Origin: Methylovorus glucosotrophus
GTDB taxonomy: Bacteria; Pseudomonadota; Gammaproteobacteria; Burkholderiales; Methylophilaceae
Direction of reading: 5' to 3'
DNA: 64,000 nt
NCBI RefSeq assembly: GCF_009858335.1
Contig: NZ_VMSE01000002.1
Coordinates: 310,001-374,000, forward strand
Positions 9,068 to 24,508 of the stretch are shown here, in pieces. The translations under genes were made by a program, and so were the position numbers. How positions within the stretch are numbered: position 1 is the stretch's first letter; every line of letters starts with the position of its first letter. The notes under the pieces were generated by a model. The model was not told where the DNA came from, made no database searches, and saw only the letters and a list, made by a program, of their open reading frames with translations.

Positions 9068-11230
9068 TTATACCTTTTCCAGCTTGGCGTATTCCAGCAT
9101 GAGCCATTTCATGCCTTCGCTGCCAAAGTTCACCTGCACCCGCATGTCGTTGGCGTTGCCTTCGTAATTCACGACCACACCTTGCCCAAATTTGCTGTGT
9201 GCTACGGCCTGGCCTATTTTCCATGGCATGCTGTTTTTCTGTTCGCTGCTGGTGGCGGCTTGCGATACTGGCGACTCGCCATAGCCACCGCGGCCAGGGC
9301 TGGCGCGGGTATTCAGGCGCTTCAGCAAGGCCTCGGGTATTTCATCCAGAAAGCGCGATGAAATACCGTAGCGTACCTGACCATGCAGCATGCGGCTTTG
9401 CGCGTGGCTCAGGTAAAGACGCTGGCGCGCGCGCGTCACGGCCACGTACATCAGGCGTCGCTCTTCTTCCAGGCCATTCGTTTCATACAGGCTTTGCTCA
9501 TGCGGGCACAAGCCTTCTTCCAGTCCGCTGATAAATACCGTGCGGAACTCCAGCCCTTTGGCGGCATGCACGGTCATTAGTTGCAAGGCATCGCGGCCGA
9601 CTTCTGCCTGATGTTCGCCTGCTTCGAGGCTGGCAAAGGTCAGGAAGTCCGTCAGGGTGCCGGCATCCTGATTGTTATTGACGAAGGTAACGGCCGCCGA
9701 GATTAATTCATCCAGGTTGGCGATACGGTCTTCGCCTTCCTTTTCATTCTGGTAATGGGTTCTCAGGCCGGAGAGCGTGGTGGCAATCTCGGCCATTTCT
9801 GGCAGGGTGAGCCCGGTGGCTTCTTCCGCCATCTGACGGATCAACGCGACAAACCCTTCCACGCCCTTGCCTGGGCGGCCATTGCCCACTTTGTTGATGG
9901 CGGCCTGCCACAGGCTGCAGTCTTCGGCGCGTGCGGCTTCCTGCAATTGTTCCAGGCTGCGCGCACCTATGCCGCGGGTAGGGAAGTTGATCACGCGCAG
10001 CAAGGCGGTGTCGTCATTCGGGTTGGCGATCAGGCGCAAATAGGCCAGCGCATGCTTGATTTCGGCGCGTTCAAAAAAGCGCAGCCCGCCGTAAACACGA
10101 TAAGGCAGACCAGCTGAAAACAGCGCATGCTCCAGCACGCGCGACTGGGCATTGGAGCGATAGAGCAGGGCGATCTCGCTCAGCTCGGTGCCTTCGCTGT
10201 GCAGGGATTTGATCTCGTCGACGATAAAGTTGGCTTCATCAATATCGTTATAGGCCTGATACACGCGTATCGGCTCGCCTTTGCCAGCCGAGGTCCACAG
10301 GTTCTTGCCCAGGCGGTTGCGGTTATGGGTGATGATGGCGTTGGCGGCATCCAGAATATTGCCGTGCGAGCGGTAGTTCTGTTCCAGCTTGACGATATTG
10401 CGTACATTAAAGTCTTGCTCAAAGTCGCGCATATTGCCCACGCGCGCCCCGCGGAAGGCATAAATCGACTGGTCGTCATCGCCCACGGCAAACACGCAAT
10501 TGTCCGCCCCGGCCAGCAGCTTCAGCCACAGGTATTGCAGGCGATTGGTATCCTGAAACTCATCGACCAGGATGTATTTGAAGCGGCTCTGGTAGTGCTG
10601 GCGTATGCTGGCATCGCGGCTCAGCAGCTCATAGCAGCGCAGCAGCAGCTCGGCAAAATCGACCACCCCTTCGCGCTGGCACTGGCGGTCGTACTCTTCA
10701 AAAATCTCCCGCATGCGTTGGGAGTGCGCGTCATAGGCATCCACCGCATTTGCCCGCAGGCCTTCTTCCTTGCAGCTATTGATATAGCCCATGACCTGCT
10801 TGGGTGGAAACTTTTCATCATCCACATTCATCTGCTTCATCAGGCGCTTGATGCTGGATAACTGATCGGCGGTGTCCAGAATCTGGAAGGTGGCTGGCAG
10901 CAGCGCTTCGCGATGATGCGCCCGTAGCAAACGGTTGCACAGACCATGGAATGTACCTGCCCACATGCCGCGCACATTGATCGGCAGCATGGCGGAAAGC
11001 CGCGTCAGCATTTCCTTGGCCGCTTTATTGGTAAAGGTCACCGCCAGCAAACCATTGGGCGATACTTGTCCGGTCTGGATCAGCCACGCAATGCGGGTGG
11101 TGAGTACGCGGGTCTTGCCGCTACCTGCACCGGCAAGTATCAGTGCAGATTGGTGCGGCAGCGTGACCGCCTCAAGTTGCTTGTCGTTCAGGCCTTCGAG
11201 CAGAGAGGTAGAGGGGTGTTGTGCGTTCAT
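9068..11230 (-). CDS. uvrD: ATP-dependent DNA helicase UvrD/Rep family
   Basis: Superfamily 1A helicase of 720 residues, the normal UvrD size. Motifs in order: Q motif and Walker A (AGAGSGKTRV, about residues 33-42), motif II DEFQDTN, motif III GDDQSIYAFRGA, motif IV LEQNYRSHGNIL, motif V TVHAAKGLEFRTVF and motif VI VAVTRARQRLYL. UvrD unwinds DNA in nucleotide excision and mismatch repair. The C-terminal tail (VAHSKFGQGVVVNYEG and onward) is the UvrD-type tudor-like domain that contacts RNA polymerase. It ends at a shared terminator. Its start faces the candidate small RNA. Confidence 0.95.
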   Translation of the reverse strand: MNAQHPSTSLLEGLNDKQLEAVTLPHQSALILAGAGSGKTRVLTTRIAWLIQTGQVSPNGLLAVTFTNKAAKEMLTRLSAMLPINVRGMWAGTFHGLCNRLLRAHHREALLPATFQILDTADQLSSIKRLMKQMNVDDEKFPPKQVMGYINSCKEEGLRANAVDAYDAHSQRMREIFEEYDRQCQREGVVDFAELLLRCYELLSRDASIRQHYQSRFKYILVDEFQDTNRLQYLWLKLLAGADNCVFAVGDDDQSIYAFRGARVGNMRDFEQDFNVRNIVKLEQNYRSHGNILDAANAIITHNRNRLGKNLWTSAGKGEPIRVYQAYNDIDEANFIVDEIKSLHSEGTELSEIALLYRSNAQSRVLEHALFSAGLPYRVYGGLRFFERAEIKHALAYLRLIANPNDDTALLRVINFPTRGIGARSLEQLQEAARAEDCSLWQAAINKVGNGRPGKGVEGFVALIRQMAEEATGLTLPEMAEIATTLSGLRTHYQNEKEGEDRIANLDELISAAVTFVNNNQDAGTLTDFLTFASLEAGEHQAEVGRDALQLMTVHAAKGLEFRTVFISGLEEGLCPHEQSLYETNGLEEERRLMYVAVTRARQRLYLSHAQSRMLHGQVRYGISSRFLDEIPEALLKRLNTRASPGRGGYGESPVSQAATSSEQKNSMPWKIGQAVAHSKFGQGVVVNYEGNANDMRVQVNFGSEGMKWLMLEYAKLEKV

Positions 11231-11304: not shown

Positions 11305-11481
11305 AAAAATCGGGGATCATGTCTGACAATTTTAGAAATTGTCGGAACTAAACGCGAGTGACTTCGTCTTACTTTGCAGATGGCGCAAGTCATCTCCCGC
11401 TTCTCCTCCCTGAGCGGGAAGCCTTATCTGATGAGGCTGCTTGATCCCCGATTTTACTCCCCTTTAATCGGGGTTTTTTTT
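11305..11481 (+). ncRNA. Candidate structured small RNA with its own terminator
   Basis: A non-coding stretch between uvrD and the yfiB-like gene that folds strongly as plus-strand RNA. A perfect 14-pair closing stem joins 11306-11319 to 11442-11455. Inside are an 11-pair hairpin (11322-11332 with 11336-11346), a middle stem (UGACUU with AAGUCA), and a hairpin at about 11420-11438. Two stems contain a U-G pair that would be an A-C mismatch on the other strand, which supports transcription rightward. It ends in a stem at 11446-11473 and eight T residues. The terminator and the closing stem use the same central CCCCGAUU, so they exclude each other. No family was recognised; 6S RNA was considered and does not fit. 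Confidence 0.55.
11446..11481 (+). terminator. Rho-independent terminator of the candidate small RNA
   Basis: CCCCGATT at 11446-11453 pairs with AATCGGGG at 11466-11473 and is followed by eight T residues. It acts on rightward transcription. No gene on the plus strand lies just downstream, so it probably ends the small RNA. Confidence 0.85.
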
Positions 11482-11662: not shown

Positions 11663-12187
11663 TTAATCCGTCACCACAATAATGCTCACCCGGCGATTTT
11701 CTGCCCGGCCCGCTACGGTGGCATTGCTCGCTACCGGGCTTTGTGAGCCCATGCCCCGAACAATGATGCCACTTTTGGGCATGCCGGATTGGATAAAGGC
11801 ATCCGCCACCGCCCAAGCGCGCTGCTCTGACAACTCGACGTTATAAGACTCGCGACCCGTGGCGTCAGCGTGGCCTTCAATCCGCATCTTGTTCAATCCG
11901 ACCGACTGCAGCGCTTTGCTTACCTTTTGAACAGCGCCGCGGCTTCTGTCATTGAGTACAGCCTGGTTGGTATCAAACAGCAATTTGTCGGCGAAGCTGA
12001 GCGCCCAGCCATCATCGGTATGCACGAAGCCTTGCTCTTTCAGCGTACGAATCTGCTTCTGCCGCAGGGTTTCCTGTGCAGGGGCCGCAGGCGTTGATTT
12101 ACACGCGGAGAGGGTTAACGATAGGGTAAATGCCAGCAATGCATAACAAACAGTAGAACGAAATAATGAATACAATTTAAACCTCAT
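11663..12187 (-). CDS. OmpA-family outer-membrane lipoprotein, YfiB-like
   Basis: Lipoprotein of 174 residues. The signal peptide ends in the lipobox LSAC (cysteine near residue 29), so the protein is likely anchored in the outer membrane. Residues 60-174 form an OmpA C-terminal domain with the peptidoglycan-binding signature EGHADATGRESYN followed by LSEQRA. It is the third gene after yfiR- and yfiN-like genes, the same order as the Pseudomonas yfiRNB operon. There YfiB sequesters the periplasmic repressor YfiR at the cell wall and so releases the cyclase YfiN. That role is inferred here from order and domains. Confidence 0.85.
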   Translation of the reverse strand: MRFKLYSLFRSTVCYALLAFTLSLTLSACKSTPAAPAQETLRQKQIRTLKEQGFVHTDDGWALSFADKLLFDTNQAVLNDRSRGAVQKVSKALQSVGLNKMRIEGHADATGRESYNVELSEQRAWAVADAFIQSGMPKSGIIVRGMGSQSPVASNATVAGRAENRRVSIIVVTD

Positions 12188-12270: not shown

Positions 12271-13500
12271 TTACAAACCGATGGCCCAACTGCCGCGCTC
12301 CTGGTCCTTGGCCCGATACATGGCTTCGTCTGCCGCCGCGAGCAACTCCTGTGCGGTACGCGCGTGGTCGGGGTAGAGGGCAATCCCGATGGTCACCGAG
12401 CAGGTGATCAGCTCCCCGTTGGGTAGCGTGATGGGGGATTGCATCTGATGGGCAATTTTCTCGGCAATATGCACCGCATCTTCGGCATGCTTGATGGGTT
12501 TGAGCAGCGCCGCAAACTCATCCCCACCCAGACGGGCCACAATATCGCTCTCACGTAACTGGCCACTGATGCGCAGCGCCATGATTTTCAGCACCTCATC
12601 GCCAGCCGCGTGTCCATAGGTGTCGTTGATTTCCTTGAAGTGATCGCCGTCCATGAACATCAACGCCACCGCGTTGCTGTGGAATCTGGCATCACGCACG
12701 GCGTGCTCCAGTTCGGATTCGAGCAGGCTGCGATTGCACAGGCCGGTCAGGCTGTCATGGTTGGCGCGATAGGCCAGGGTGTCGTGTTCACGTTTCACAT
12801 GGCGTTGCCAGGTGGCAAGTTCATCCATCAGGGCATTGAAGTCCTGATTGAGTTGATTGAGCTCGGCGATATTGGCAGCAGGGGCGCGCAAGCCGAAGCT
12901 GCGATATTGGCGCACGCGGTGGGCGGTATCGGCCAGGATATTCAAGGGCCCGGAAATGCCAGCATGCATGCGGCGGGAGAGCGCCAATGCCAGCAAGGTA
13001 CTGAAGGCCATGCAGGCAAAGACGCAGCTGATCCCGGTGACCATGTATTCCAGCAGCAGGCGGCTGTGAGGTACCAGACGGATACGGCCTATGGTCATAT
13101 TGTCGTGCGTGACCGGGTAGTAGTAGGGCTCGGGCATGACGATGTTGGCCAGCCAGCTTTCCAGGTGGAAGAAGGCACCTGTCTCAGGGCGTTTCCAATT
13201 GGCCAATGGGATGCCATGGCGGCCGATGACGCGGATCTCGGCCACATCCTCGCGCTTGCCTACCTTATCCAGGGCCTCTTGCACCGCCAACTCATCGTTG
13301 AACAGCACAGCCGCTTCCACCGTATAACTCAGCGAGCGCGCTACCAGCTGCATGTTTTGCGTGGCATACGCCTGCAAGGCATACATGCCAGCGAGGGTGA
13401 GCGCAAGCCCGGAGGAAATGACGGCAATCAGCGCCACGCTCAGGTGCGCGCGCCGCAGAACCTGATCCAGCCTTGGGAGTGGTGAGCGAGGCGTGGTCAT
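12271..13500 (-). CDS. Membrane diguanylate cyclase, YfiN-like
   Basis: Inner-membrane protein of 409 residues: a transmembrane segment near residues 20-42, a periplasmic sensor of CHASE8/PAS type to about 150, a second membrane segment (about 152-172), a HAMP linker and a C-terminal GGDEF domain. The active site RLGGDEFAAL is intact, and RESD five residues before it matches the inhibitory I-site, so an active, product-inhibited diguanylate cyclase is expected. It makes c-di-GMP from two GTP. Its ATG overlaps the stop of the yfiR-like gene (ATGA), so synthesis of repressor and cyclase is coupled. Confidence 0.9.
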   Translation of the reverse strand: MTTPRSPLPRLDQVLRRAHLSVALIAVISSGLALTLAGMYALQAYATQNMQLVARSLSYTVEAAVLFNDELAVQEALDKVGKREDVAEIRVIGRHGIPLANWKRPETGAFFHLESWLANIVMPEPYYYPVTHDNMTIGRIRLVPHSRLLLEYMVTGISCVFACMAFSTLLALALSRRMHAGISGPLNILADTAHRVRQYRSFGLRAPAANIAELNQLNQDFNALMDELATWQRHVKREHDTLAYRANHDSLTGLCNRSLLESELEHAVRDARFHSNAVALMFMDGDHFKEINDTYGHAAGDEVLKIMALRISGQLRESDIVARLGGDEFAALLKPIKHAEDAVHIAEKIAHQMQSPITLPNGELITCSVTIGIALYPDHARTAQELLAAADEAMYRAKDQERGSWAIGL

Positions 13501-22046: not shown

Positions 22047-23468
22047 CTAAATCAGTGTCAGTTGAGCCTTGAGCTGCATGTAGGCCTTGGATTCATGAAA
22101 AACGGGCATGAAGGCTTCAAACGCTTCAATCGACAACGGCCGGCTGAAGAGATAGCCCTGGTATTTCATGCAGCCTTTATTCAGAAGGTAGTTCAGCTGC
22201 TCGGTGGTTTCCACGCCTTCTGCAATCAGCATCATGTTGAGGTTTTTGCTGAGTACGACCAGGGTTTCCACAATCGCTTTGTCGCTTTCGTTGGTCAGCA
22301 GGTCGCGCACAAACGATTGGTCTATTTTCAACTGTTCAAATGGCAGGTGCTTCAGGTAGTTGAGTGAGGAGTAGCCAGTGCCAAAGTCATCCAGTGACCA
22401 GCTGATGCCGAAGGCACGCAGGGCTTTCATCTTCTGGATGGTGGTGTCGACATCCTTCGCCAGCATGCTTTCGGTGAGTTCGAGTTTTAGCTGCGCTGGC
22501 GTGGCGCCGCTGCGCATCACGATCTCGATGACTTCCTGCACGAAGTCGGGCTGCCTGAGCTGCGATGCGCTGACATTCACCGAGATGCTGAGATGCGCCA
22601 TGTTGGGGTCTTTAGACCACTTAACCAGTTGGGCACACGCTTCTTTCAGCACCCATGTGCCAATAGGCTGGATCAGGCCGGTTTCTTCGGCTGCGGCGAT
22701 AAAGACGCCCGGGGGAATCATCCCGCGCACGGGATGTTGCCAGCGTAGCAGGGCTTCCGCCCCGAAAATATTGCCTACGGCATCCACCTGCGGCTGATAA
22801 TGCAGGCGGAACTGGCCTTGCGCCAGCGCCGCACGCATATCGGCATACAGCGAATGACGCGTGGAAATGTCGGTTTGCATGACAATCAGCGCCACACCCA
22901 GAATCGCGAGTGCAGCCAGGTTGTTAATCCATGCTCCCAGCAGGCGAATCTCCTGATCGGCGATCAGCTCGGGTTTGACGATGCCGATATGAGAGCTCGC
23001 AAAAATCAGGCAGCACGCCAGCAAGGTAAATGGCAGCACCAGACGCAGATAGAGATTTTCCTTGCGAAATATCAGCGAGGCGCCCGCCGCCACCGGCAGA
23101 AAATACATATGAACCGAGCGGGGGACATCCTGCGTTGGCACATCCAGCCAGCAGATCACGCAAAGCATTACCAGCAACCCATGCGCCATGCTGATCGCCA
23201 CCAAGCGCTCGCGCCCGGCGTTGATGAGAATGAGGGTGTAGATCCCCAGGGCAATCAGAATGGCATGGGACGCCATCAACACCCATTTGCCATGACACAG
23301 ATAATAGGCGCCCCACATGCCGCAGAGCATGATCAGCGACCATCCGCCAATCGCCAGCAACATTCTTACCCGCAGGTTGTGCGGTTCCTGCGCATAGGGT
23401 GGAAGCTCATGTCGCAATAACTTGAACAAGAACCGTAATGGCATCGGCAGGCTATTCAGATGGGGCAT
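22047..23468 (-). CDS. Membrane-bound EAL-domain c-di-GMP phosphodiesterase
   Basis: Protein of 473 residues: six or seven membrane segments in residues 35-215, a short linker and a C-terminal EAL domain with no GGDEF domain. Catalytic motifs are intact: EALLRW (the EAL signature), ELTESML, DDFGTGYSSL, KIDQSF (catalytic Lys) and AEGVE, so it should hydrolyse c-di-GMP to pGpG. A long leader with a c-di-GMP-I riboswitch lies upstream, so enzyme level probably follows substrate level. The ATG at 23468 is preferred over an in-frame TTG at 23537; SD-like GGGGCA and the AUG lie in a six-pair hairpin. Confidence 0.92.
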   Translation of the reverse strand: MPHLNSLPMPLRFLFKLLRHELPPYAQEPHNLRVRMLLAIGGWSLIMLCGMWGAYYLCHGKWVLMASHAILIALGIYTLILINAGRERLVAISMAHGLLVMLCVICWLDVPTQDVPRSVHMYFLPVAAGASLIFRKENLYLRLVLPFTLLACCLIFASSHIGIVKPELIADQEIRLLGAWINNLAALAILGVALIVMQTDISTRHSLYADMRAALAQGQFRLHYQPQVDAVGNIFGAEALLRWQHPVRGMIPPGVFIAAAEETGLIQPIGTWVLKEACAQLVKWSKDPNMAHLSISVNVSASQLRQPDFVQEVIEIVMRSGATPAQLKLELTESMLAKDVDTTIQKMKALRAFGISWSLDDFGTGYSSLNYLKHLPFEQLKIDQSFVRDLLTNESDKAIVETLVVLSKNLNMMLIAEGVETTEQLNYLLNKGCMKYQGYLFSRPLSIEAFEAFMPVFHESKAYMQLKAQLTLI

Positions 23469-23481
23469 GGCACATTGCCCC
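23462..23481 (-). promoter_or_regulatory. Hairpin covering the start site of the EAL gene
   Basis: On the mRNA, GGGGCA (23476-23481) pairs with UGCCCC (23462-23467) around an eight-base loop. The first strand is the best Shine-Dalgarno-like sequence for the ATG at 23468, and the second holds the last two bases of that AUG. This could limit translation and may be the output point of the riboswitch, though no pairing to the aptamer was traced. Confidence 0.4.
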
Positions 23482-23728
23482 TGGCGAACGATACGGTCGC
23501 GATGGCATCCGCCTCCATCAGAAAAGCCGCCAGGCAATCTGCAGCGGGTCGAGGTCTCATTGCCAGTCTGGTAATCACTAACTACTTTCCGTTGAATTTA
23601 TCTCCAGCCACGCCACGCAGGGCGATAGCCGCCTGACAGCCAAGCCTCAGCTCACGCTGGGCTCACATGTCTGATGCGGGTGATACATCATGGAAATTGC
23701 AAAGCGCCGAATACATTCACCCTTGCGG

Positions 23729-23812
23729 TAAACGGCAGTCCCGCTACCTTAGGCATGCGCCCTTAGGTCGGAAACTTTGCGTCCCTGCCTTTCAGCAGGT
23801 TTGCCTTTCAAT
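23729..23812 (-). promoter_or_regulatory. c-di-GMP-I (GEMM-I) riboswitch
   Basis: Read on the minus strand, the segment holds the conserved GEMM-I core in order: GGCAAACC, a stem closed by a GAAA tetraloop, GGGACGCAAAG, the ACCUAA receptor strand, then GGUAGCGGG and the closing P1 strand UGCCG. This matches the Vc2-type class I aptamer closely. It sits about 260 bases before the ATG of the EAL phosphodiesterase on the same strand. Binding of c-di-GMP most simply would raise phosphodiesterase production, giving negative feedback; the direction of control cannot be read directly. Confidence 0.95.
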
Positions 23813-23822
23813 AACGGCGCTA

Positions 23823-23851
23823 AGTTCATCAAACTTTGCTGGGGATGTCAA
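23823..23851 (-). promoter_or_regulatory. Likely promoter of the riboswitch-EAL transcript
   Basis: TTGACA at 23846-23851 and TGAACT at 23823-23828 with a 17-base spacer on the minus strand. The predicted start, near 23815, is just before the riboswitch. The -10 element is weak, as might be expected for a regulated promoter. Confidence 0.5.
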
Positions 23852-24016
23852 CTGCGGAAGCCTTACATGCGGTACACCTGGCTGGAAGGCGGCAGTACAA
23901 TTTAGGCATTACGGTTAGTTGCCGGCCGACCCTGCGGGCAGTCAGGCAACATATTATTAACGTTGCAGGCGGCGCATATCGTACAAGCCATCTTGCACCG
24001 AAAGGAGCATACACGC
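23852..24016. other. Intergenic region between EAL leader and deacylase gene
   Basis: Together with the riboswitch leader this forms a non-coding gap of about 550 bases. No gene is supported in this part. It should contain the promoter of the deacylase-like gene. A strong Shine-Dalgarno (AAAGGAG) lies at about 24001-24007. Confidence 0.4.
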
Positions 24017-24508
24017 ATGACAATCCAATCCAACGTCACTACCCTGCTCGAAAGCAAAGGCATCGCTTTCAAGATTGTCGAAATTCCGCTTAGCGAAGAC
24101 AAAAAGCCCATCCGTAGTCTTGAGGAGTTGCTCTCTGCGCAGGGCTTGGAGCCGCAGTCGGTGGTACGTAGTGTGGTGTTCAAGGGTGAGCAGAGCGGGT
24201 TTTGCCTGCTGGCGGTGGCGGGTGGTGGTCGGGCGGACTGGGCGTTGTTGCGTAACTTTCTGGGGGAGCGCAAGTGCCGTATGGCGGAGTATGCCGAGGT
24301 GCCGGAAGCGACCGGGTATGTGGTGGGTGCGGTGCCGCCGATTGCCTTGCCTGAGGGCTTGCGGGTGCTGGTGGATACCAGTGTTTCTGCGTATGAGACG
24401 GTGGTGATAGGCAGTGGCGTGCTGGGTTATGCGCTGGCATTGAAGTCGGCGGATTTGCTGAGTCTGTTGCAAGATAAGCCGCAGGGCAGCTTCGTCAAGG
24501 TCGAGTAG
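24017..24508 (+). CDS. YbaK/EbsC family aminoacyl-tRNA deacylase-like protein
   Basis: Protein of 163 residues with the YbaK/ProX fold. Related proteins remove wrongly attached amino acids from tRNA (for example Cys-tRNAPro or Ala-tRNAPro). The pattern QSVVRSVVFKGEQSGFCLL and the end of the domain (VVIGSGVLGYALALKSADLL) fit the family. The charged substrate is unknown. The ATG at 24017 follows a strong AAGGAG. The gene is alone, 68 bases before the open frame of the helicase. Confidence 0.82.
   Translation: MTIQSNVTTLLESKGIAFKIVEIPLSEDKKPIRSLEELLSAQGLEPQSVVRSVVFKGEQSGFCLLAVAGGGRADWALLRNFLGERKCRMAEYAEVPEATGYVVGAVPPIALPEGLRVLVDTSVSAYETVVIGSGVLGYALALKSADLLSLLQDKPQGSFVKVE

Follow-up and report, generated by a model that had tools for sequence, protein, structure and literature searches.

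Most riboswitches for c-di-GMP act on outputs of the signal, for example motility and adhesion. The locus described here, in a window of 64,000 nucleotides of Methylovorus glucosotrophus (the whole stretch of DNA analysed), raises the question whether such a riboswitch is also placed in front of the enzyme that destroys its ligand and, if so, whether c-di-GMP would raise or lower the synthesis of that enzyme. A riboswitch on a phosphodiesterase would give c-di-GMP a direct feedback at the RNA level, and an environmental methylotroph is convenient for measuring whether such a loop damps or latches the signal.

The original prediction had proposed a GEMM-I aptamer ahead of an EAL gene within 23462-23851, a span that reaches from the -35-like TTGACA to just beyond the start codon. 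All the GEMM-I motifs it named were found on the minus strand, and the Rfam scan, which had been named beforehand as refuting if negative, returned with cmscan a full-length match to RF01051 (c-di-GMP-I, GEMM-I; model positions 1-87 of 87, E 4.1e-14), far over the gathering score of 35 (Table 1). The GEMM-I core pattern occurs without mismatch once in the window and in none of 100 dinucleotide shuffles, and a permissive RNA-family scan of 23300-24100 up to E 5 gave no second aptamer and no other RNA family. The ACCUAA motif is present as predicted, in a form that departs from the consensus GGUCUAAGG, and the opposite side of P3 changes along with it: the helix has A-U and C-G pairs in M. glucosotrophus and G-C and U-A pairs in four aligned relatives. 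Helices P2 and P3 both carry changes on both sides among the aligned leaders, and over the whole leader such changes affect 5 of 29 pairs in the five aligned sequences. The GNRA tetraloop (GAAA) on P2 is present and the pocket positions compared with the RF01051 consensus (the specificity G, the A of J2/3 and the C of J1/3) all agree, with the ligand-touching positions partly assigned on our own assumption. Part of this assignment comes from PMC6274999. The minus-strand element at 23815-23731 is, by its sequence, a canonical c-di-GMP-I aptamer, predicted to bind c-di-GMP.

Table 1. Features of the EAL gene and its leader in the window.
Feature	Position	Strand	Basis
EAL phosphodiesterase gene, 473 aa	22047..23468 (ATG 23468, stop 22047)	-	PF00563
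Promoter-like sequence: TTGACA, 17-nt spacer, TGAACT with extended TG	23823..23851	-	sequence
-35-like TTGACA	23851-23846	-	sequence
-10-like TGAACT	23828-23823	-	sequence
c-di-GMP-I aptamer	23731..23815	-	RF01051, 80.0 bits
Hairpin CGUUUACC-GCAAG-GGUGAAUG, right after the ligand-contacting C	23714..23734	-	conserved in leader family
Possible terminator-like stem UGCCG / CGGCG	23705..23737	-	sequence; p 0.34
Shine-Dalgarno-like AGGGG before ATG 23468	23478..23482	-	sequence

That the aptamer might instead be a variant sensing c-AMP-GMP appears very improbable, since M. glucosotrophus has a G (GGCAAACC) where the variants have A, the position of the G20A change on the RF01051 model being placed as we take it to be. 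An A at the specificity position was seen in two other sites (G113:C8:387555 and G121:C92). Variants of this kind do occur within the original GEMM collection (PMC7266159) and G20A is named as the variant specificity change (PMC6274999). In its whole aptamer, GAAA tetraloop, pocket positions and 5' placement on the gene's strand the locus agrees with the RF01051 class, and it differs in that the gene predicted to be controlled degrades the ligand and in that the M. glucosotrophus leader is without a recognisable expression platform. The locus adds a member to an established class of riboswitches, in a placement that is uncommon and could be self-regulating.

The aptamer lies 262 nt 5' of the EAL start codon on the same strand, the arrangement that had been predicted, and the start codon is common to the orthologues in the protein alignment. 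EAL is the sole Pfam domain of the product (249.7 bits, cut-off 31.3, positions 3-236 of 236), and the best PDB match is 4rni, entitled 'Motility regulator' (E 5.3e-69, residues 197-451), which we take to be MorA. Eight residues (E238, N298, E330, D360, D361, K381, E417 and Q437), presumably the catalytic positions of EAL phosphodiesterases, are invariant in four aligned proteins and align with identical residues in 4rni, in keeping with the intact catalytic set claimed earlier. The protein thus appears to be a c-di-GMP phosphodiesterase, as predicted from these residues. The part preceding the EAL domain matched no Pfam and no NCBIfam family; in a predicted structure of low confidence (mean pLDDT 66.5) it forms long helices, which probably span the membrane. 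The MorA-type EAL domain is the closest solved relative over residues 197-451, and compared with the MorA type the M. glucosotrophus enzyme has an unmatched helical N-terminus and is without a GGDEF domain. A search with the N-terminal part in the named genomes gave three loci, in Methylovorus mays VKM B-2221, Methylophilus sp. 13 and an uncultured Methylophilus MAG. The gene across the intergenic region is oriented divergently and encodes a YbaK-like tRNA-editing domain. The genome as a whole gave 33 EAL and 42 GGDEF matches; one GGDEF protein is encoded about 10 kb from the EAL gene (12271-13500, minus strand), directly after an OmpA-like lipoprotein gene, a layout that recalls YfiB/YfiN.

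To define the leader, a covariance model was built from five sequences (M. glucosotrophus, M. mays (G002), G001, G086 and G010) and searched in 150 genomes of the family. It gave 57 matches, seven of them above 100 bits and the next at 82.4; the seven comprise the five sequences used to build the model and two new ones, G490 and G522. The high-scoring leader precedes an EAL gene in four genomes, M. glucosotrophus, M. mays, G086 and G490, the last two being near-identical Methylophilus genomes. The joint conservation of aptamer and gene is therefore directly visible, and the promoter-like sequence, the aptamer and a short 3' stretch are, as judged from the alignment, one conserved leader. The -10-like sequence TGATGAACT is common to M. 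glucosotrophus, M. mays, G001 and G086. Transcription is predicted to start near 23816, where the aptamer begins or close to it, and with the usual promoter spacing the RNA would open directly with the aptamer. A consensus scan of 23300-24100 reported no sigma-70-like promoter and also missed the proposed site, whose second hexamer does not have the A that the scan requires at position 2. The one terminator-like site in the same scan, on the plus strand, was rejected: it is the P2 helix of the aptamer itself and no better than expected by chance. The sequence that separates the -10-like hexamer from the probable start (23822-23816, minus strand) is the G+C-rich TAGCGCC; a G+C-rich discriminator is of the kind linked to ppGpp control.

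Downstream of the aptamer, the hairpin that follows it is kept in all five aligned leaders save one U-U and one lost pair; as it is nearly invariant, covariation gives no proof of it, and by energy alone it is not unusual (169 of 2000 shuffles equally stable). A pairing of the 5' GCGCCG with CGGCGC around the aptamer of M. glucosotrophus was set aside because most of it is probably 5' of where transcription starts and because G001 does not have it. Beyond the first ~40 nt the stretch from aptamer to ATG is hardly conserved, and the AGGGG is conserved neither in M. mays nor in G086.

We infer that the riboswitch, carried at or close to the 5' end of an RNA made from the leader's own promoter, would control the probably membrane-anchored EAL phosphodiesterase, whose expression would then follow the level of its own substrate. 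According to PMC6274999, the ligand-pairing C (C75) lies in J1/3. By our mapping the ligand-contacting C is model position 83, at 23735 of the window, and the GCCG that holds it can pair with a downstream CGGC in M. glucosotrophus, M. mays and G001. When no ligand is bound, this CGGC and the aptamer's 3' end may form a terminator-like stem; bound c-di-GMP would take the C, prevent the stem and allow read-through, and high c-di-GMP would give more phosphodiesterase until the signal falls, a negative feedback. Should the stem act as a terminator, it and the bound ligand would be mutually exclusive, which would make the riboswitch an ON switch. The tail following the candidate stem reads UUUUUC in M. 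mays and G001 and CUUUGC in M. glucosotrophus, where the stem has no U-run and is itself within chance. Sequestration of C83 as a general signature was rejected: among 84 leaders three reached p <= 0.05, with a median p of 0.60 (KS p 0.80). On balance we favour the reading that the riboswitch controls the EAL gene, probably with an ON sign, as suggested by the compensatory changes in the aptamer, the intact EAL domain and the recurrence of the pair in four genomes; counted against it are the chance-level stem, the G086 leader, which has no downstream CGGC, the 262-nt gap and an orthologue in an uncultured Methylophilus (L140) for which no RF01051 match reached the gathering threshold.

The same riboswitch may also work with the opposite sign, a less probable reading that we nevertheless take seriously. 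Bound c-di-GMP would then lower the phosphodiesterase, a positive feedback that could latch a high c-di-GMP state; the effect could run through Rho, or through a ribosome-binding site far from the aptamer, instead of an intrinsic terminator. Both signs exist among c-di-GMP-I riboswitches according to PMC6366702, the leader is long, and the AGGGG of M. glucosotrophus is predicted to be paired; against this, folds of the three full leaders of M. glucosotrophus, M. mays and G086 revealed no start-codon structure common to them. Further evidence on the sign comes from G001, where the high-scoring leader stands before a gene for a ShlB/FhaC-type transporter (TpsB), followed by that of a TPS-domain, haemagglutinin-repeat protein. 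Outputs of the adhesin type are usually raised by c-di-GMP, and an OFF switch would, against this pattern, shut the G001 operon at high c-di-GMP. The ON reading is therefore the one favoured by physiology.

The occurrence of the same leader before other genes in relatives, and the riboswitch-free orthologue of L140, lay outside the view of the original prediction. They also bear on whether a real aptamer might be present without controlling the EAL gene, for instance because a second promoter lies within the 262 nt or because the leader is a relic. The poorly conserved stretch behind the aptamer, the leader's presence before different genes and the L140 gene without it agree with such a lack of control, which we nonetheless regard as improbable: the aptamer and the EAL gene persist together across two genera, Methylovorus and Methylophilus, and the promoter scan, which overlooked the proposed site as well, found no sigma-70-like promoter in the gap. 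In G010 and G522 the genes behind the high-scoring leader encode small proteins without a Pfam match, whose N-termini look signal-like. The platform string, searched in 399 genomes of the order, occurs in M. glucosotrophus and M. mays, with one two-mismatch match in G312; G001 is not in that list.

G001 is a Methylovorus close to M. mays. Its EAL domain is 99% identical to that of M. mays (M. glucosotrophus is 92% identical to either), and the gene is truncated (L124 4333-5415), with approximately the first 180-200 residues missing. Relative to M. glucosotrophus and M. mays, most of ybaK and the leader are missing at this locus too, and the EAL remnant abuts the last codons of ybaK in the opposite direction. 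The G001 tpsB leader and the M. mays EAL leader are 88% identical in an alignment of 147 nt that starts at the -10-like region and ends shortly after the U-run, so that one leader type serves two unrelated genes within one genus and one sensor could be compared on two outputs, a phosphodiesterase and an adhesin operon. No TpsB homologue was found in M. glucosotrophus or M. mays at E 1e-30. In another genus, G061 has a tpsB gene behind a c-di-GMP-I aptamer, in a leader that is only ~50% identical. Support in the leader tree was 54-64, except for 100 for the two Methylophilus leaders, and with such low values no direction of transfer is claimed. As a speculative extension, which we hold only tentatively, aptamers in the Methylophilaceae would repeatedly stand before c-di-GMP-degrading enzymes (EAL, HD-GYP type) as an RNA negative feedback, and the leader of about 150-170 bp (promoter, aptamer, platform) would be a portable cassette. 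The G001 lineage would then have swapped homeostatic feedback for direct output control: its EAL leader would have been lost in one deletion together with most of ybaK and the N-terminus of the enzyme, with a leader of the same type standing at the TpsBA adhesin operon.

How unusual the placement is was estimated from the genes behind other aptamers. Two c-di-GMP-I sites were found in the M. glucosotrophus genome, and only the one described here precedes an EAL gene; the second (L002 1501-1585, 66.5 bits) stands before a 431-aa predicted secreted protein (1635-2930) with at most a below-cut-off DUF4124 match, and the same pair of sites is present in G001 and M. mays. Including M. glucosotrophus, 149 genomes of the order gave 90 RF01051 sites. 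Classification covered 84 of them (2 own, 82 others), a single below-cut-off row included, and left out six, one of them below cut-off. A script chose the first gene at each site by the length and position of the ORFs; at one classified family site the downstream DNA was only 207 nt long, and at another no ORF reached 100 aa. The first gene was of EAL type at three of the 84 sites, a GGDEF-EAL hybrid at one and of HD-GYP type at six, and all ten of these sites belong to the Methylophilaceae (10 of 51 family sites). A pure GGDEF protein was the first gene at none of the 84; at six a GGDEF ORF lies further down. Across the class, 107 of 117 sites were classified, leaving out the own 2, 4 of G104 and four below cut-off, with less than 300 nt of downstream DNA at 5 sites, 300-1498 nt at 10, ~1500 at 25 and more at 67. 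Searches with two-round profiles revealed a c-di-GMP turnover domain in this DNA at 4 of the 107: two in G879 (GGDEF-EAL) and one each in G618 (GGDEF) and G634 (HD-GYP type, from +576). A weaker single-sequence search had given 3/107, and its count of 3/140 a p of 1.3e-4, which is superseded.

Phosphodiesterase-type first genes look over-represented in the Methylophilaceae: 10/51 family sites against 6/140 others (Fisher p 0.0018), where the former number counts first genes of phosphodiesterase type and the latter any c-di-GMP domain in the downstream DNA. The six comprise the four class-wide sites together with G125:C39 and G131 from the non-family part of the order set; three family sites with an EAL-HDOD first gene are outside the ten, and G490 is outside all these counts. 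G019, with a listed contamination of 5%, contributes 13 of the 51 family sites. The six HD-GYP-type proteins form one family (47-58% identical to the first), and M. glucosotrophus, M. mays and G086 carry orthologues; as the sites are thus not independent, the family bias is a lead rather than a result, and together with the possibly portable leader it is worth following. Riboswitches before turnover genes are already known as a kind: PMC12564702, recounting work by Weinberg and Sudarsan, reports in general terms that GEMM RNAs occur ahead of certain DGC and PDE genes, and the present locus shows the same kind of arrangement. A literature search with most subscription journals outside its reach led to no paper that we recognised as treating this locus.

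Several further observations concern other c-di-GMP-I sites and the window. At L034, L039, L052, L058, L060 and L067 the first genes encode DUF3391 plus HD-domain proteins with the consensus GFP, where HD-GYP proteins have GYP, and in G013:C1 a GGDEF ORF lies at +1628 beyond such a gene. In four genomes of genus g7 (L061, L062, L064, L065) the aptamer precedes a protoglobin-PAS histidine kinase, assigned by Pfam for one and by sequence likeness for the other three, with a GGDEF ORF ~2.1 kb on. The genes behind the 13 c-di-GMP-I sites of G019 include those of HD-GYP-type, EAL-HDOD and MotA-like proteins. Finally, the window holds an anti-hemB RNA (Rfam RF02837, 67.5 bits, gathering score 49.5) at 11393-11481 on the plus strand, with no hemB-like ORF among the five ORFs listed there; by gene names assigned by eye, it lies between a UvrD/Rep-like helicase gene (9068-11230, minus strand) and the OmpA-like lipoprotein gene (11663-12187, minus strand).
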